A stretch of DNA of 64,000 bases from Devosia sp. Root436 (lineage in GTDB: Bacteria > Pseudomonadota > Alphaproteobacteria > Rhizobiales > Devosiaceae). Positions within the stretch are counted from its first letter, which is position 1, and every line of letters begins with the position of its first letter. The position numbers and the translations under genes are program-made. Below the pieces are notes generated by a model. That model saw only the letters and a list, made by a program, of their open reading frames with translations. It was not told the origin of the DNA and searched no databases. This document shows positions 19,893 to 27,481 of this stretch, piece by piece. Location: contig NZ_LMEM01000014.1 of NCBI RefSeq assembly GCF_001426345.1, positions 186,001 to 250,000 of the forward strand, read 5' to 3'.

Positions 19893-21451
19893 GTTGCCGT
19901 TGGCCCGTCTTCTCTGAACTGCTAGGCTGAAGGGCATACTGGATGCCGCCGCATCGACCGTTGCCGTTGGCCCGTCTTCTCTGAACTGCTAGGCTCCAGG
20001 CCGATTGCCGCCTCAACATGGGCTGGGTTGCCGTTGGCCCGTCTTCTCTGAACTGCTAGGCTAGCGACGGCTATCTGTCGATGCACTTCGGGGTTGCCGT
20101 TGGCCCGTCTTCTCTGAACTGCTAGGCTTTCGTCGGCTCGTGATCGACGCAAAGCACTCGTTGCCGTTGGCCCGTCTTCTCTGAACTGCTAGGCTGAAGG
20201 CGCCTATGTGAACCTCGATCTCAGCGTTGCCGTTGGCCCGTCTTCTCTGAACTGCTAGGCTTCACCGGCCACGAACTGCCGAAGCATTTCGGTTGCCGTT
20301 GGCCCGTCTTCTCTGAACTGCTAGGCTGCTGCCGGCATGGCGTAGAGTTCCATGGCCGTTGCCGTTGGCCCGTCTTCTCTGAACTGCTAGGCTGCTCGCC
20401 ATGTCGGCCAAAAAGCTGATCGAGTTGCCGTTGGCCCGTCTTCTCTGAACTGCTAGGCTTAAGACGGTTGTTGCTGCACTGGTTAAGTCGTTGCCGTTGG
20501 CCCGTCTTCTCTGAACTGCTAGGCTCCATCAAGCCAATGGGCGCTTGGGCGCTCAGTTGCCGTTGGCCCGTCTTCTCTGAACTGCTAGGCTAGCCATAGG
20601 ACCGGATCGCGGCCGCGTCATGTTGCCGTTGGCCCGTCTTCTCTGAACTGCTAGGCTCCATGAACGGACGCGGATAAAGCGGTCTTCGTTGCCGTTGGCC
20701 CGTCTTCTCTGAACTGCTAGGCTCCTTGCGGTTCTCGTGCACCCAGAGAGCGTGTTGCCGTTGGCCCGTCTTCTCTGAACTGCTAGGCTATACATCCGCA
20801 CTGAAAGCGTCGATATCGAGTTGCCGTTGGCCCGTCTTCTCTGAACTGCTAGGCTACTAACCCCCATCCCCAAGCAGAAGGCATAGGTTGCCGTTGGCCC
20901 GTCTTCTCTGAACTGCTAGGCTCATGATCCGCGCGAATGACAACTTGCCTGAGTTGCCGTTGGCCCGTCTTCTCTGAACTGCTAGGCTGGCCGCTTCCCA
21001 GATCGTGGCGCCACACCAGTTGCCGTTGGCCCGTCTTCTCTGAACTGCTAGGCTTGGTGACGGGTGACCGCGTTCTGGTCAAGGGTTGCCGTTGGCCCGT
21101 CTTCTCTGAACTGCTAGGCTGTAGGAGGTGGTTGGTCCCACGCTCACTCTGTTGCCGTTGGCCCGTCTTCTCTGAACTGCTAGGCTCGCGCACACAACAT
21201 CCTCAATGCAGCGGTCGTTGCCGTTGGCCCGTCTTCTCTGAACTGCTAGGCTTGATGTTGCCTTTGTACTCCCGGCCCCAGTGTTGCCGTTGGCCCGTCT
21301 TCTCTGAACTGCTAGGCTCTTTTCGCTCATGGGCTGATCGGCTTCCCGGTTGCCGTTGGCCCGTCTTCTCTGAACTGCTAGGCTTAGCGCCTGACATGGC
21401 TCGATCCATTGAGCGGTTGCCGTTGGCCCGTCTTCTCTGAACTGCTAGGCT
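19893..21451 (+). CRISPR. Type II-C CRISPR array, 24 repeats and 23 spacers
   Basis: Twenty-four copies of a 36-bp repeat (GTTGCCGTTGGCCCGTC...CTGAACTGCTAGGCT) separated by 23 unique spacers: 18 of 30 bp and 5 of 31 bp. All repeats read as identical, including both terminal ones. The plus orientation is assigned because the tracrRNA anti-repeat (26465-26500, plus strand) is complementary to the repeat in this direction and is followed by a terminator. That means the array is transcribed towards, and opposite to, the cas genes. Only 22 bp separate it from the upstream gene, so there is no room for a conventional leader on the left. No spacer was matched to a source. Confidence 0.99.
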
Positions 21452-21523: not shown

Positions 21524-21889
21524 TTAGAAAAGTGCCATCTGGTCCGGATTTTTTCTCGCTGGGCGGCGGCCTTGATCCGAGAATCGCACGATGTTCTCAT
21601 ACTGCCGGTCGGTGAACTGGAAGATGTAGACATTGCCAAACTCCGGCAGCTTTGCACCGATCTTGCGGACGTAGGAGTCGAACTGCTCCTTGCCGTTGCA
21701 GAAGCGAAGATAGTTGGAAAGCTGGCTCATTTCAAAGCCAAGATCGAGCAGGTCGTGGCGGAATCGGTTGGCGGCCTTGCGCTGGGCCGGTGTCTCGACA
21801 GGCAGATCGAAGGTTACCAGCATCCACATGAATCGGTATCCGCTGAGGTGGGAAGGTTCGGCATTGGCCCTAAGTTCCCGCCGGGTCAT
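21524..21889 (-). CDS. cas2: CRISPR-associated endonuclease Cas2 (type II)
   Basis: A 121-aa protein with the ferredoxin-like Cas2 core: MLVTFDLPVETPAQRKAANR, with the metal-site aspartate at D28, then LLDLGFEMSQLSNYLRF and FGNVYIFQFTDRQYENI. It forms the Cas1-Cas2 spacer integration complex. The ATG at 21889 has a GGAGG 6 bp upstream and overlaps the end of cas1 by 20 bp; the longer ORF to 22027 is a cas1 shadow. It is the last gene of the cas9-cas1-cas2 operon. Confidence 0.95.
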   Translation of the reverse strand: MTRRELRANAEPSHLSGYRFMWMLVTFDLPVETPAQRKAANRFRHDLLDLGFEMSQLSNYLRFCNGKEQFDSYVRKIGAKLPEFGNVYIFQFTDRQYENIVRFSDQGRRPARKNPDQMALF

Positions 21890-22799
21890 CGAGGGCCTCC
21901 TCGCGCCGCTCAGCGAAGACAAGCCCGGCGGGCAAAGCGAGTCGGGCTTCGCCGGATTCGAAGCTGGTTGCCACCGAATGGACAAAGCGCTGCACGTGGA
22001 CCGCAAGCGGCGAGACGATGTCGCCACTAGTCAGATCGAGCGTGGAAATGGCTGCCAGTTGCCGCTTGGTGTCTGGGTTGACCTCGGTGGCGCCTTCGGT
22101 GGCAAGGCGCCGAACCAATTCGTCGACGAGCGGGCGGTAGGGCTCCATCAGGTCGTCGGACAGGGCGAAAGCATTGGCGCGATTGGAATGAAAAACGCTG
22201 ATGGTGGGGTGCAGCCCCGCTGCACAGATGGCGCGGGAGACGATCGCGCGTAATACCGCATAGCCGTAGTTGAGCAGGCCATTGAGGCCGGCTGCGTCTT
22301 GATCGCGCGAAAAGTCCGGGCCGAACAGGGCCTTCCAGTATCGCCGCGCCGCCTGCGCCTCCACATTGTCGGGATCGCCGGAACGAACCTTGCGGGCGAG
22401 CATGTCGAAAGCGCCGGCTTCGACGCCGCGGCGCATGAGAACGTCGCCCTGCATGCGGATTTTGCTGGCCACTATCCTGGCCCAAATCTGCTTGCCGAGC
22501 GGGCGGGTGGCCGCAATCTGGGCCCGCATGCGCGCCGCCTGCAGGTGATGCCCTTCCAGCGGCCAGACGCAGGCGACCGGCGCATGGTTGGTGCCGCATA
22601 TGACCACCGGCACAGCGCGCTCGCTCAGCCGCGTGAAGACGCTATTGGACCAACTGGTGCCATGCGCATGCACAATCAATGCGCCAATATCGTCGAGTGC
22701 AATACGCCCGCGCTCCTCGCCGGCTTCGCTCACGGTCAAAAATCCGCGATGCACCGCCAGAAACAGGCCATCGGTTTCTATGTCGACTATCCGCTCCAT
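21870..22799 (-). CDS. cas1: CRISPR-associated endonuclease Cas1 (type II)
   Basis: A 309-aa integrase with an N-terminal beta domain (GRIALDDIGALIVHAHGTSW) and an alpha-helical catalytic domain. The metal-binding residues are E147 (NVEAQAARRYW), H204 (TISVFHSNRANAFAL) and E219 (LSDDLMEPYRP). Length and motifs match type II Cas1. It starts 55 bp after the cas9 stop. No cas4 or csn2 is present, which with the short Cas9 makes the locus subtype II-C. Confidence 0.97.
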   Translation of the reverse strand: MERIVDIETDGLFLAVHRGFLTVSEAGEERGRIALDDIGALIVHAHGTSWSNSVFTRLSERAVPVVICGTNHAPVACVWPLEGHHLQAARMRAQIAATRPLGKQIWARIVASKIRMQGDVLMRRGVEAGAFDMLARKVRSGDPDNVEAQAARRYWKALFGPDFSRDQDAAGLNGLLNYGYAVLRAIVSRAICAAGLHPTISVFHSNRANAFALSDDLMEPYRPLVDELVRRLATEGATEVNPDTKRQLAAISTLDLTSGDIVSPLAVHVQRFVHSVATSFESGEARLALPAGLVFAERREEALDDPAGT

Positions 22800-22854: not shown

Positions 22855-25800
22855 TTAACCGGCGTCGTTCTGCTTGCGCGCGTTGCGGCTCTCGCGGTCC
22901 TGCGGGCCTGGATCGAAGACACGTCCGGTCTCATCCACCCGTACCTGGCGGAGTTGTACATCCCGCATGGCGCCACCTGACTTGTAGAAATAGCGGAACC
23001 GGTCCTCTGGATCGGCATCCCGGCTCTTGAGCGCGCCGCCCTCCCGGTTACCGGCAAGCGCCATCTGTCCGCCGGCACTGAATTTCACGACCCGTCCGAT
23101 GGTATAACCATCCTGGGGATGCTCATAGGCCACCATGTCGTTCTGGTGCAGGCTCAGCACCTTGCGGGCGGCGGGATTTTTGCTGCGGATTTCGGACTGC
23201 CAGTCGGGTCGATGGGCATTGAACATGCTCACCACCTCGTGGGTCCATTTGCCATTGGGCAATTCCCAGACGTCGTAGCGATAGTTGGCGTCGCCCTTGT
23301 AGCCCTTATAGGCCTTCCCGGCCTGGTCCTTTATGGCGATGACGCTGACCGGCTCGACCACGCGCACATGGCGGATGCCTTTATAGGGTCCGCTCTCGCT
23401 GAAGCGGGCGAGCGCGGCCGCCAGCTCGGCTTTGCCGGAAATGCCCGATATGGCGGCATAGAGCGCGTCGGCGAGCTGCCGATCGCGGATCGAGGGAATG
23501 TCTTTTTCGGTCAGGCTGGCGAACGGGACGCGGTGCACCATGATCGGCACGCCGTTCCGCGCTTCTCCGGTAAAGCCATAGGCGGTATCATTGTGCAACT
23601 GGCCGGCTGTCCGGCCCGGCTTACCTGGTTTGGGCAGCGAGCCGTGATCGGGCTTATGGCTGACCACGATGCGGTCGATGGCAGCCTTCACGTCGTCGTA
23701 AAAGCCCGGCCAGGGCGGCTCGATCTTGCCGATGGTTTCCTCGAGCGCCAGCGCCTCGCGCCCGCCTGCTACAGTCGCGATGCGCTGCAGCAGACGGCGG
23801 GTGGTCACCCCGACGACAATGGCGTCGATGGCGTGATGGCGGTGGTCGTTGCGATTTTTCTGATTGTGGTCGGAGATGATGGCGTTGAGGCCCCATTGCC
23901 GCCGCAACATCTCGGTCATCCTCCCCGGAATGACGCGGACATGGTTTCGGCGTGCGGGGCCGCCCCATTCGTCCGGTTCCTCGTCAGGATAAAGCGCGCC
24001 CAGATATTCATGCGCCAGGCGCGACAGATATTGGGTGTCGGTCAGCTGGCGGGCGAGAAAACTCTCATCGTCCTTGAATTTCTTCATCGCCTCGCGGCCG
24101 AAGCGCCAGGCCTTGTTGCGGGGCAGGCGCTCGGCCCGCGCCAGGATGTCGTCGTACCGATCATGCCATTGCGGCACCTCGGCAGGGGCGTGATTGCCCT
24201 TTTGCCTGTTGCATTCGACATGGCAGACGATGCGGTTGGCCTGGCTGTCATCGAGGGTTTTCGACCAGGGCAGGATGTGGTCGATATCGACCTGGTTGGA
24301 AAGCAGCGTGCCGATGCCGATCGCCTTGCCGCAATAGATGCATTCTCGGTTTTCGGGCTGCTTGAGGTTGAGATCTTCCCATAGCTTGAGCAGGACGCGG
24401 TTGTAGCCGTTGTTCGCGTGGCCAAGTTCCTCCAGCTTCTTTCCTCGTGCTTCCGCGGCCTTGGTGTTCCGCGCGATCTCCCGGTTTTTCTCGGCCTTCT
24501 GTTCCTCGTTGAGCTTGAGGTCGCGCGCCAGTTCCAGCGCGATCTGTTCGGGCCGGCCGTGGCGGCGCATCAGCACGTTGACGATGCGCTTGAGCTGGTT
24601 GAGCCCGATATGGACGGTGGGATTGGTCAGGCGACCCTTTTGCACGTCATAGGGGTCGGCGGGCTTGCCGGTGCCCGGCGGAATGCGCCGGCCCAGAACC
24701 TCCTGATAGGGTGGAAGCTCGCGCGCATCGGTCACGGCGCGCTGCAGGGCGGGGTTGTCGCCCCAGATATTATCCATGGCCTGCCGCTCGGTCAGCACCA
24801 CGTCGCGCCCGGCATCGTCCTTGACGGTACCGTTTCTCAGCTCATCAAGCATGTCCCGCAGCGCCGTCTCACCCAGGCGGCCGTAGCCGGTCGGGAGTTT
24901 CGCGGCGGCAATGGCATCGATCCGGTCGGCGGCAAAGCCATAGCGCTCTTCGAGCCATGCCTTGACCTCCAGCGGGTCTTCGGTGTCGAGCAGCATCGCG
25001 ACCACCGCCCAGCGCTCGGCCAGCGGCATGCCGATCCAGGCCTGGCCGAAGCGGTCCTTGTGGCTCATTTCGGCCGCGACCTCGTCGCCCTTGAGCTTGT
25101 CGCGGGCGTCGCTCTCCTTGTTGAAGCGGGTTCCGGTGGGCGCCTTGATTGTCTTGCGCAGCGCGGTGAAAGCCGAGGAGCGCTGTGTGCGCAACTGGTT
25201 GAACAGCCTATCGCGCTGGTCAGGCGTCAGCTTTTCGCGCCGGTCGCCACGATGGACGACTTCCAGCTCATTGAGCTCCTTGATCAGCCGGAATTCCTGG
25301 AACAGGGGATGCGCCTTGGGCAGGCGATCCTCATCCGGGTGGAAACTGCATTTGCCGACTGTCGGCCGTTTGAGAGGGCGCTGGAAAAACATCACCCAAT
25401 GCAGGTGGTCGCGCCGTTCCTCGGTCAGCAGTTCGGGATAGAAGGCGGCCTGTGCTTCCCATATCGCGGCGAATTCGCGCTCGAGAAAGCTGCGTTCGGG
25501 ATAAAAGCCATAGCCGTCCTCTTCCTTGTCGTCCTCGCCGGGGACGCGCGACGGGCGCACGCGCACCCATTTGCCAGCGGCATGCTGCTTATGCAGGAAC
25601 TCGCCGAGGGTTCGTGCTCCTGCTTCATCGAGTTTTCGGCCAAGGCGCGAAATAGCCGAGGCGATCTTGCCCTGGTCGTTATCGCGTTTGTCGGTCTTGC
25701 GGTTGGATTTGAAGCCCCGCCGCTGGTTGAGGTGAAACAGCGCGCGCCCCAGTTGATAGAGCGGCAGTTTTTCGTCCAGCGCGCGGGCCCGCAGTGCATA

Positions 25801-26133
25801 GACATTGCTGGCCACTTCCCCGAAACGCCGGTCATTGGTTTCGGCCACCAGCGCCTTGCGCGCCGCTTTGGTCGCCGGCATCAGGCCGAATTCGGTCAAG
25901 GTGTTGAGCACCGTTCGGCGGCGGCGCTTATAGCGGTCGCGGCGGCGCGACATGCCGCGCGCAATGCGGCGCCCCTCGGCCAGCGAGGTGCCGGACTTGG
26001 GCTCGCGCCCATCGGCATAGATGCGCACGCCAGCCTCGATGATGCCGACAGGCTCGCCCTGTTCGTCGAGACGCAGGGCGGCCCAGCCGATGGAATTTGT
26101 GCCCTTGTCCAGTCCAAGAGAATACGATACCAA
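22855..26133 (-). CDS. cas9: Cas9, type II-C RNA-guided endonuclease
   Basis: 1092 aa from a TTG at 26133, a typical compact II-C length. RuvC-I is SLGLDKGTNSIGWAAL with D9. The arginine-rich bridge helix (RRIARGMSRRRDRYKRRRR) is near 55-75. RuvC-II has E534 (QIALELARDL). The HNH domain has DIDHILPWSKTLDDSQANR with H619, bracketed by CIYC and CHVEC cysteine pairs that could hold zinc. RuvC-III has HRHHAIDAIVVG with H767 and D770. All nuclease residues are intact, so it should cut both strands. The upstream in-frame TTG at 26145 overlaps the GGAGGG ribosome-binding site, so 26133 is preferred. Its promoter region is matched by a guide-like sequence beside the tracrRNA. Confidence 0.98.
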   Translation of the reverse strand: MVSYSLGLDKGTNSIGWAALRLDEQGEPVGIIEAGVRIYADGREPKSGTSLAEGRRIARGMSRRRDRYKRRRRTVLNTLTEFGLMPATKAARKALVAETNDRRFGEVASNVYALRARALDEKLPLYQLGRALFHLNQRRGFKSNRKTDKRDNDQGKIASAISRLGRKLDEAGARTLGEFLHKQHAAGKWVRVRPSRVPGEDDKEEDGYGFYPERSFLEREFAAIWEAQAAFYPELLTEERRDHLHWVMFFQRPLKRPTVGKCSFHPDEDRLPKAHPLFQEFRLIKELNELEVVHRGDRREKLTPDQRDRLFNQLRTQRSSAFTALRKTIKAPTGTRFNKESDARDKLKGDEVAAEMSHKDRFGQAWIGMPLAERWAVVAMLLDTEDPLEVKAWLEERYGFAADRIDAIAAAKLPTGYGRLGETALRDMLDELRNGTVKDDAGRDVVLTERQAMDNIWGDNPALQRAVTDARELPPYQEVLGRRIPPGTGKPADPYDVQKGRLTNPTVHIGLNQLKRIVNVLMRRHGRPEQIALELARDLKLNEEQKAEKNREIARNTKAAEARGKKLEELGHANNGYNRVLLKLWEDLNLKQPENRECIYCGKAIGIGTLLSNQVDIDHILPWSKTLDDSQANRIVCHVECNRQKGNHAPAEVPQWHDRYDDILARAERLPRNKAWRFGREAMKKFKDDESFLARQLTDTQYLSRLAHEYLGALYPDEEPDEWGGPARRNHVRVIPGRMTEMLRRQWGLNAIISDHNQKNRNDHRHHAIDAIVVGVTTRRLLQRIATVAGGREALALEETIGKIEPPWPGFYDDVKAAIDRIVVSHKPDHGSLPKPGKPGRTAGQLHNDTAYGFTGEARNGVPIMVHRVPFASLTEKDIPSIRDRQLADALYAAISGISGKAELAAALARFSESGPYKGIRHVRVVEPVSVIAIKDQAGKAYKGYKGDANYRYDVWELPNGKWTHEVVSMFNAHRPDWQSEIRSKNPAARKVLSLHQNDMVAYEHPQDGYTIGRVVKFSAGGQMALAGNREGGALKSRDADPEDRFRYFYKSGGAMRDVQLRQVRVDETGRVFDPGPQDRESRNARKQNDAG

Positions 26134-26148
26134 CGAGCCCTCCAAACA

Positions 26149-26184
26149 CTTATAAGTTTGATGGTAATCAAGTTGTCTTATAAG
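26149..26184. promoter_or_regulatory. cas9 promoter region with two CTTATAAG palindromes and a self-target site
   Basis: The AT-rich region just upstream of cas9 holds two identical 8-bp palindromes, CTTATAAG at 26149-26156 and 26177-26184; each supplies a TATAAG that could act as a -10 box on the minus strand. No good -35 could be fixed. Bases 26161-26182, overlapping the distal palindrome, match 19 of 22 bases of the guide-like segment at 26382-26403. On the plus strand the bases after this protospacer are AGGAATAA, the PAM position for this Cas9. Confidence 0.6.
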
Positions 26185-26261
26185 GAATAATTAGGTACGT
26201 AAAGAAATATGTTGCCTATGGGTCGGCTAAGGGTTACGGCTAACGGAATTGCCAAAGAGGC

Positions 26262-26320
26262 AGTGATCGGGATTGGCGTCCAAACCCATACCCCGATCAC
26301 TCATCCAGACCCGGATGAGT
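26262..26320. repeat. Two consecutive perfect hairpins in the cas9-tracrRNA intergenic region
   Basis: Hairpin one: AGTGATCGGG (26262-26271) with CCCGATCACT (26292-26301), a 10-bp stem and 20-nt loop. Hairpin two: ACTCATCC (26299-26306) with GGATGAGT (26313-26320), an 8-bp stem and 6-nt loop. The two overlap by 3 bases. No ORF is present. They may be a structured RNA, a terminator for an upstream cas9-region transcript, or protein-binding sites. Confidence 0.5.
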
Positions 26321-26381
26321 CCTTGAGTAGCATAGGCGCAGGGTCCACACCAGCGCCGCTCCTAACCTGACTGTGCTCACA

Positions 26382-26461
26382 ATGGTAAGCAAGTAGTCTT
26401 GTAGTTGCCGTCGGAATGCTTTGGACTTGAACTGACGTGGTTTTTCTGGCTTTGTGCTAGG
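26382..26461 (+). ncRNA. crRNA-like element: cas9-promoter-matching guide plus degenerate CRISPR repeat
   Basis: Bases 26382-26403 match the cas9 promoter (26161-26182) at 19 of 22 positions. Directly after, 26404-26461 reads like a decayed repeat in array orientation, its blocks kept in order: GTTGCCGTCGG (10 of 11), TGAACTG (7 of 7) and TGCTAGG (7 of 7), with insertions between. TGCTAGG (26455-26461) forms a perfect 7-bp stem with CCTAGCA (26466-26472) at the start of the anti-repeat; TTTTTCTG (26441-26448) can pair with CAGAGAAG, and GTT (26404-26406) with the terminal AAC. A long tracrRNA starting upstream would thus be a natural single guide. Confidence 0.7.
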
Positions 26462-26561
26462 ACTGCCTAGCAGTTCAGAGAAGGCGGGTCGGCTGTTAAC
26501 AAGCGAAAGCTCGTAAGGCTGAACGCACCAAATAAGGCCCTCGCTCCGGCGGGGGCTTTTT
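26455..26561 (+). ncRNA. tracrRNA
   Basis: The anti-repeat at 26465-26500 (GCCTAGCAGTTCAGAGAAGG then CGGGTCGGCTGTTAAC) pairs with the array repeat over a nearly continuous 26-bp stretch, with a bulged lower stem. It is followed by a small AGC-GAAA-GCT hairpin (26502-26511) and a Rho-independent terminator: an 8-bp stem (26537-26544 with 26549-26556), TCCG loop and five T residues (26557-26561). The short-form 5' end is not known; TGCTAGGAC at 26455 resembles an extended -10. Orientation opposite to cas9 and place next to its 5' end fit II-C loci. Confidence 0.9.
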
Positions 26562-26611
26562 GGTTTGGCGATCCGGGGGGCATGGTGGCGAGGCGGCTGC
26601 CAGAGGGGTTC

Positions 26612-27481
26612 ATGCGGGATATCAGGCTTTCGAGTTTGCGGATTTGCCTTGAGGTTCTGCGCCGCCAGAACCTGACGGCAGCAGCCCAGGCTCTCAACAT
26701 GACGCAGAGTGCGGTCAGCAAGAACGTTCAGCAGGTCGAGGCGCAACTGGGCGTGCCCCTGTTCGAGCGGAGCAAGGACGGCGTCATTCCCTATGACAAT
26801 GCAAGGATATTCCTGTCGCGCATTGCCGAGGGCATCGGCACCATCGATGCCGCAGTCGAGGCCTTTGTGAGTTCGCAGGGCTCGGGCACGCTGAGGATCG
26901 TGGCGCCGCCCATCATTGCCCAGCGCTTTCTCATTCCGTTTCATCACGACCTGGTGGCCCGGCACCCGGACCAGGAACTGGTCTTTCGGGTACGGACGGC
27001 GCCCGGCCAGCGCTATGCCGATACCGATGCCGAGATATTCTTCAATGGCGGCGGCAGTCCGCCGCCATCAGCGCAGTGGCTGATCGGCGATCGCTTCTGG
27101 GTGGTCGCGCATCCCTCGATCGCCACGGCGGACCTGGCGCTGAGGGATATCGTCACCTATCCGCTGCTGCAGCATGTGAAGGTGGAGGCCGCCTGGTTCC
27201 AGCTGGCAGAGCGGCATGGCATCAGCCTCTCCGCGACGCGGTTTCACTATTATGAGCAATATGGCCTCATCATAGATGCCGCCCTGCAAAAGCTCGGCAT
27301 TGCGATCGTGCCGCGCTTTCTCGTTCGCGACGCCGTGCAAGCGGGCCAGCTGCAGCGGATCGGCGAGGAAATCGTCTTTCCGGAAATGGGCTATTACTAT
27401 CAGCTCGTGCGCCACGAAAAGCTCTCGGTGTCCCGTAAATTCTTCACCTGGCTAAAGGAGATAGCGGACGCGCAAGCCTGA
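26612..27481 (+). CDS. LysR family transcriptional regulator
   Basis: A 289-aa regulator with an N-terminal winged helix-turn-helix (LRICLEVLRRQNLTAAAQAL followed by NMTQSAVSKNVQQVE and LGVPLFERSKDGV) and a periplasmic-binding-like effector domain (GTLRIVAPPIIAQRFLIPFH; LGIAIVPRFLV). The ATG at 26612 has AGAGGGG close upstream; the ATG at 26582 is the alternative and lies only 20 bp after the tracrRNA terminator. It is co-directional with tctCBA just downstream and is the likely regulator of that importer, with the effector probably being the imported acid or a catabolite. Confidence 0.9.
   Translation: MRDIRLSSLRICLEVLRRQNLTAAAQALNMTQSAVSKNVQQVEAQLGVPLFERSKDGVIPYDNARIFLSRIAEGIGTIDAAVEAFVSSQGSGTLRIVAPPIIAQRFLIPFHHDLVARHPDQELVFRVRTAPGQRYADTDAEIFFNGGGSPPPSAQWLIGDRFWVVAHPSIATADLALRDIVTYPLLQHVKVEAAWFQLAERHGISLSATRFHYYEQYGLIIDAALQKLGIAIVPRFLVRDAVQAGQLQRIGEEIVFPEMGYYYQLVRHEKLSVSRKFFTWLKEIADAQA

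Follow-up and report, generated by a model that had tools for sequence, protein, structure and literature searches.

The window, by which we mean the whole analysed stretch of 64,000 nucleotides from Devosia sp. Root436, contains a CRISPR-Cas locus with a tracrRNA region next to cas9. The cas9 ORF occupies 22855..26145 on the minus strand (NCBIfam TIGR01865, 588 bits), and TTG at 26133, which comes after a GGAGGG ribosome site, is by eye more likely to be the start codon than the beginning of the ORF at 26145. It is accompanied by cas1 (21870..22799, minus strand; TIGR03639), an ORF with a cas2 domain beginning at residue 67 (21524..22027, minus strand; TIGR01573) and a CRISPR array of 24 repeats of 36 nt and 23 spacers (19893..21451, plus strand). 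Judged from these adjoining genes, with no other cas gene in between, the arrangement is that of type II-C and not of type II-A, the subtype in which the natural single guide tracr-L was described. The tracrRNA anti-repeat lies at 26465..26500 on the plus strand; within it, 26465-26488 matches the array repeats in inverted orientation (24 nt, 96%), the stretch from there to 26500 was added by eye, and the anti-repeat is conserved in relatives. The intrinsic terminator of the tracrRNA (26534..26559, plus strand) is conserved in Devosia sp. Root635. An Rfam search of 25900-26800 returned only two matches, both far below the gathering scores.

On the same strand lies ATGGTAAGCAAGTAGTCTTGTA (26382..26403), the guide segment of a proposed long tracrRNA, which matches a site upstream of cas9, the putative protospacer at 26161..26182 (plus strand). 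An earlier note, made from the letters alone, had counted 19 identities in 22 positions with mismatches at positions 3, 9 and 15 from the PAM side, and recomputation gave the same figures. The match is far beyond chance: the runner-up site for the guide on both strands of the 64-kb window reaches 14/22, the best site in 2001 first-order shuffles of 26146-26380 reached 16/22 (the commonest value being 12), and in the whole 3.9-Mb genome only the guide and target sites fall within three mismatches, with 0 for a reversed-pattern control. Of the three mismatches, the one at position 3 is by eye a G.T wobble, the one at position 9 a true A.A mismatch, and the one at position 15 falls outside the seed. 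The spacing of 3, 9 and 15 was also set by hand against a six-base period, and no significance was attached to it.

With respect to the likely start codon of cas9, the target lies 28-49 nt upstream, and it overlaps TATAAG, a minus-strand motif that by eye resembles a -10 element. The target is assigned to the promoter by its position; a sigma-70 consensus scan of both strands of 26120-26600 found no full promoter. An inverted repeat, AGTGATCGGG / CCCGATCACT at 26262-26301, is found between the target and the guide of the window, and comparable inverted repeats differing in sequence are present at the related loci L069, L070 and L073.

A decayed CRISPR repeat (26404..26461, plus strand) starts at 26404, directly after the last nucleotide of the guide, in agreement with the boundary drawn previously. 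The remnant is colinear with the array repeat, comprising GTTGCCGTCGG at 26404-26414 (10/11 of the repeat start), TGAACTG at 26428-26434 and, after an insertion of approximately 20 nt, TGCTAGG at 26455-26461; it is complete but decayed, and the anti-repeat follows directly 3' of it. The remnant had been suggested to pair with the anti-repeat, and it is indeed predicted to fold onto it, TGAACTG pairing with CAGTTCA in the minimum-energy fold, but one of the suggested pairings, TTTTTCTG with CAGAGAAG, is possible and goes unused there. When the guide is held single-stranded, the predicted fold of RNA 26382-26561 brings the repeat start onto the 3' end of the anti-repeat, with hairpins after it, and 10 of the first 12 remnant nucleotides find their partners among the 30 nt that precede the nexus. 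The energy of the remnant pairing is unexceptional (72 of 300 shuffles were as low).

The layout was then searched for at 76 loci with relatives of the Cas9, from genomes and plasmids. The scan was blind to the PAM and extended from cas9 to the tracrRNA nexus or, at the 20 loci without a detected nexus motif, up to 600 nt upstream of cas9, and it recorded stretches abutting a repeat-like start and matching another site, counted from the 3' end of the stretch; 200 first-order shuffles per locus gave the expectation. A guide-like stretch with a matching site beside cas9 was found at 16 of the 76 loci (1.82 expected), and at 10 loci GG occupied PAM positions 2-3 (0.17 expected). Twelve of the 16 hits are judged to be real. 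The remaining four (L112, L122, L124 and L195), which have seed score 9, a repeat match of 8/11 and no GG at PAM positions 2-3, two of them having the match on the opposite strand, were set aside as chance. Exploratory looks that showed the pattern preceded the scan. A first scan of 35 loci (seed score 9, repeat 7/11) gave 15 against 4.0 expected, with several self-matches of repeat and anti-repeat included, and a second one, tightened to 8/11, gave 13 of 62 loci against 1.14. The final clause (seed score 8 with repeat 9/11) was added once L006 and L083 had been noticed by eye, and it alone admits these two; without it 10 of the 12 elements stay, nine of them with GG. Loci that were found and left unscanned are those of six of the 40 order-level genomes (G142, G255, G286, G365, G457 and G495), the class hits G574, G712 and G759, the phylum hits G827, G926 and G969, three further fragments of G003, second matches in G205, G423 and G310, and 36 of the 44 plasmid records, all from Pseudosulfitobacter, of which genus one record was scanned.

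The 12 elements span seven families of the order Hyphomicrobiales. In terms of best-segment Cas9 identity to the window, they occur at seven of the 13 loci at 50% or above, at five of the 25 between 40 and 50% and at none of the 38 below 40%. Among the 56 loci with a nexus, elements are present in 11 of the 17 whose scanned region is at least 279 nt, a limit chosen after seeing the data, and in none of the 39 shorter ones; the six long-gap loci without an element are L080, L081, L085, L128, L132 and L193. Uninterrupted seeds of 9-12 nt are found in nine of the 11 elements outside the window, the exceptions being L006 (position 1) and L083 (position 7), and the match is exactly 11 nt long in six of the 12. 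In six of eight loci, the window included and L073 being outside this test, at least 10 of the first 12 remnant nucleotides are predicted to pair near the anti-repeat 3' end. The lower stem of the minimum-energy fold is only partial in L075 and absent in L078, and in both a second repeat-like copy takes the anti-repeat instead in the predicted fold. This second copy, just before the anti-repeat, contains by eye promoter-like TTGACC, 16 nt and TATCAT or TATCCT. It is perhaps the promoter for a short tracrRNA, a repeat turned promoter; promoters carried by II-C repeats are described in a published report (PMC12080349).

Guides vary by species yet fit their own locus. When guides were paired with foreign loci, two of 900 pairings reached seed score 9, versus 10 of 12 at the own locus. 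In L069 and L070, which represent two genera of one family, the guides differ at five of the 10 positions nearest the PAM, and the aligned targets show the same five differences. The pre-seed segment TTTGCAAGACA is conserved, as is the scaffold. Another difference between the guides, at position 11, has no counterpart in the target. The earlier note had asked for conservation in related genomes and had named compensating changes in guide and promoter as decisive beforehand: guide and target do covary between species, the layout recurs in other families, and compensating changes are seen in one pair of loci, L069/L070.

Operators are commonly direct repeats, and both 22-mers of the window are near presumed promoters. 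The pair could accordingly be binding sites for a regulatory protein acting on the cas9 and tracrRNA promoters and have nothing to do with Cas9 guidance, but we consider this very improbable. A protein-binding site would presumably stay the same from one species to the next and would not adjoin a CRISPR repeat, whereas in the 12 loci the matched sequences are locus-specific and the guides fail to match foreign loci, one copy always ends at a repeat-like start, and in 10 of the 12 the other copy adjoins NGG; the operator reading was rejected on these grounds.

The 3' flank of the window target is AGGAATAA, as claimed previously, with AGGAAT as the candidate PAM (26183..26188, plus strand). The ten NGG targets have AGGAAT (window and L005), CGGAAT (L004 and L006), AGGGAC (L069), GGGTGT (L070), GGGGGT (L073), AGGCAC (L075), GGGAGT (L076) and GGGAAT (L078). 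R at position 5 and Y at position 6 are shared by all ten, which gives the motif NGGNRY, and the selection had asked only for GG. The targets of L083 (TGATAC) and L086 (GGAGTT) have GA instead of GG. For three spacers of Devosia arrays, this motif also flanks the best-matching phage protospacer: GGGAAC for spacer 6 of the window (20328..20357, plus strand), GGGCGT for a spacer of L006 (29/30 against viral contigs) and CGGGAT for a spacer of L004 (28/30 against a microvirus; an exact search of viral contigs with an L004 spacer gave none). The PAM of spacer 6 was drawn from its exact 30/30 viral-contig match (GGGAAC) alone, and it is compatible with AGGAAT, a compatibility on which the earlier note had made its proposal depend. 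The eight viral matches of spacer 6 are flanked by GGGAA in six cases, GGAAA in one and GGATA in one, and conform to NGGNRY in four, the exact match among them. This spacer matches phage major capsid genes, viral contigs and related sites in numerous genomes of the family, and flanks such as GGATAG and GGAAAC occur at the phage and family-genome capsid genes. All 16 viral matches of L006 spacer 20 have NGGNRY and count as one, because the genes are homologous. Two matches were kept out of the PAM evidence, namely that of L006 spacer 10 in a Devosia genome (flank GCGTGT, without GG) and that of L004 spacer 26 (25/30, flank AAATAT). The L080 array yielded one spacer match, with flank GACCAT, and no phage matches were found for the arrays of L076 and L077.

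Extra repeat copies without a matching target are known near cas9 (L083, L132), and a self-targeting remnant of an old CRISPR unit could by chance look like the element of the window and have no regulatory role. Recurrence, covariation and the shared PAM make this hardly credible, and it was rejected for these reasons. In the cas9-tracrRNA gap of L132 (same genome place as L044, G165) the tracrRNA strand has two repeat copies, one full and the other partial. Near them, the best match to the L132 guide measures 9 nt, is shifted out of register by one base, lies on the opposite strand and lacks GG; the guide is possibly directed at another gene. In L083 (G474) an extra near-intact repeat with its own guide is situated 850 nt upstream of cas9, and no target of this guide was found near cas9.

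In Devosia and its relatives the small RNA required by Cas9 thus appears, on sequence grounds, to have a built-in guide aimed at the promoter of cas9 itself, and therefore Cas9 probably turns itself down. In the proposed mechanism the guide segment would be held in an sgRNA fold by the repeat remnant paired to the anti-repeat, and the RNA would direct the II-C Cas9 to 26161-26182 in the promoter region of cas9, beside AGGAAT. With only partial complementarity there, Cas9 would bind without cutting and block cas9 transcription in a negative feedback; the three mismatches of the window, which the earlier note took to favour binding over cutting, would spare the chromosome. By the precedent of S. 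pyogenes, Cas9 should bind its own promoter. We put the probability that the tracrRNA-fused guide of the window steers the II-C Cas9 to its promoter region and represses cas9 at roughly 0.8. The anatomy, the guide-target match with a fitting PAM, the predicted fold, the covariation in relatives and the recurrence in seven families support this reading, and we infer that the long form is transcribed, loaded into Cas9 and repressive. The type II-C version of self-repression put forward in the earlier note is supported by these comparisons.

The seed of the window guide has mismatches at positions 3 and 9, and its strength is therefore uncertain. The guide might once have worked and now be decaying, so that self-repression holds across the clade and the window copy no longer represses. 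This is rather unlikely, even though nine of the other 11 seeds are uninterrupted and the sister Root635 has another layout, since the match spans 22 nt, the mismatch at position 3 is a wobble, and scaffold, PAM and terminator look intact. Self-repression in the window is the preferred reading.

Two layouts can be distinguished among the elements. The guide is on the tracrRNA strand in nine (window, L069, L070, L073, L075, L076, L078, L083 and L086), ahead of the tracrRNA as in tracr-L of S. pyogenes. In Devosia L004, L005 and L006 a single repeat and guide are on the cas9 strand, just upstream of cas9; there, 72-113 nt separate the end of the guide from the 5' end of cas9, and the end of the target is another 113-147 nt upstream. 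The nearest sister, Devosia sp. Root635 (Cas9 91% identical), differs from the window in layout, and no close relative sharing the layout of the window was found. In L004, L005 and L006 the system would work in two pieces, with the crRNA-like unit pairing with the tracrRNA. It may tentatively be proposed, with the odds somewhat against it, that the II-C Cas9 proteins of Hyphomicrobiales share an RNA-guided self-repression with two interchangeable layouts, a tracrRNA-fused guide and, in the three Devosia loci, a crRNA unit within what is presumed to be the leader of the cas9 mRNA; in the latter the guide precursor would be the cas9 message itself, which would be cut as it is processed with tracrRNA and RNase III, so that the feedback would act on the mRNA as well as on transcription. 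After the leader repeat, L004, L005 and L006 each have a hairpin, unrelated in sequence (arm lengths 13, 11 and 12 nt), then a G-rich stretch and the cas9 start. The hairpin might serve to shield a processed leader RNA at its 3' end or to adjust translation.

In the literature searched, in which subscription journals were thinly covered, no report was found of II-C Cas9 self-repression or of tracr-L or a natural single guide in II-C. If the reading is true, natural guides by which Cas9 represses itself are no peculiarity of II-A and occur again in II-C, in two layouts and with another PAM. The PAM of a Cas9 could also be read off the native target in its promoter, and such targets suggest that in II-C hosts, too, cas9 would be switched on by anti-CRISPR proteins.

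The nearest literature concerns scaRNA of Francisella and Neisseria (PMC13431127), likewise a Cas9-associated non-canonical guide-like RNA but one directed at other genes (in N. meningitidis at an mRNA) and not at the cas9 promoter. The CreR RNAs regulate cas genes in types I-B, I-E and V-A (PMC13131331, PMC12737573). Their mini-CRISPR anatomy, a separate crRNA-like unit with limited complementarity to a cas promoter, is found in L004, L005 and L006 and not in the window, where the guide is fused to the tracrRNA; unlike CreR, the three Devosia loci are of type II, would need tracrRNA and have the unit between the target and the cas9 start codon. The natural single guide tracr-L is described from type II-A of S. 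pyogenes, S. mutans and S. agalactiae (PMC8616872, PMC11417352, PMC12216829), and in S. pyogenes an 11-nt guide match grants binding while cutting appears to be prevented (PMC8616872, PMC11417352). Like tracr-L, the proposed long tracrRNA of the window has a guide that precedes the anti-repeat part and is complementary to a site in the cas promoter region beside a PAM of the cognate Cas9 (as drawn from one own spacer); its guide, repeat-like strand and anti-repeat are also predicted to fold as one sgRNA-like RNA. The 11-nt match of S. pyogenes has its counterpart in the six elements of exactly this length, and the seeds of 9-12 nt centre on it. Unlike tracr-L, the elements described here belong to a II-C locus and Cas9, have the NGGNRY motif and a guide directly abutting a recognisable repeat start, and the match in the window is 22 nt with three mismatches versus 11 perfect nucleotides in S. 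pyogenes. Self-control by a guide is thus known from streptococcal type II-A, and what appears to be new is its probable occurrence in two layouts in the separate II-C branch.
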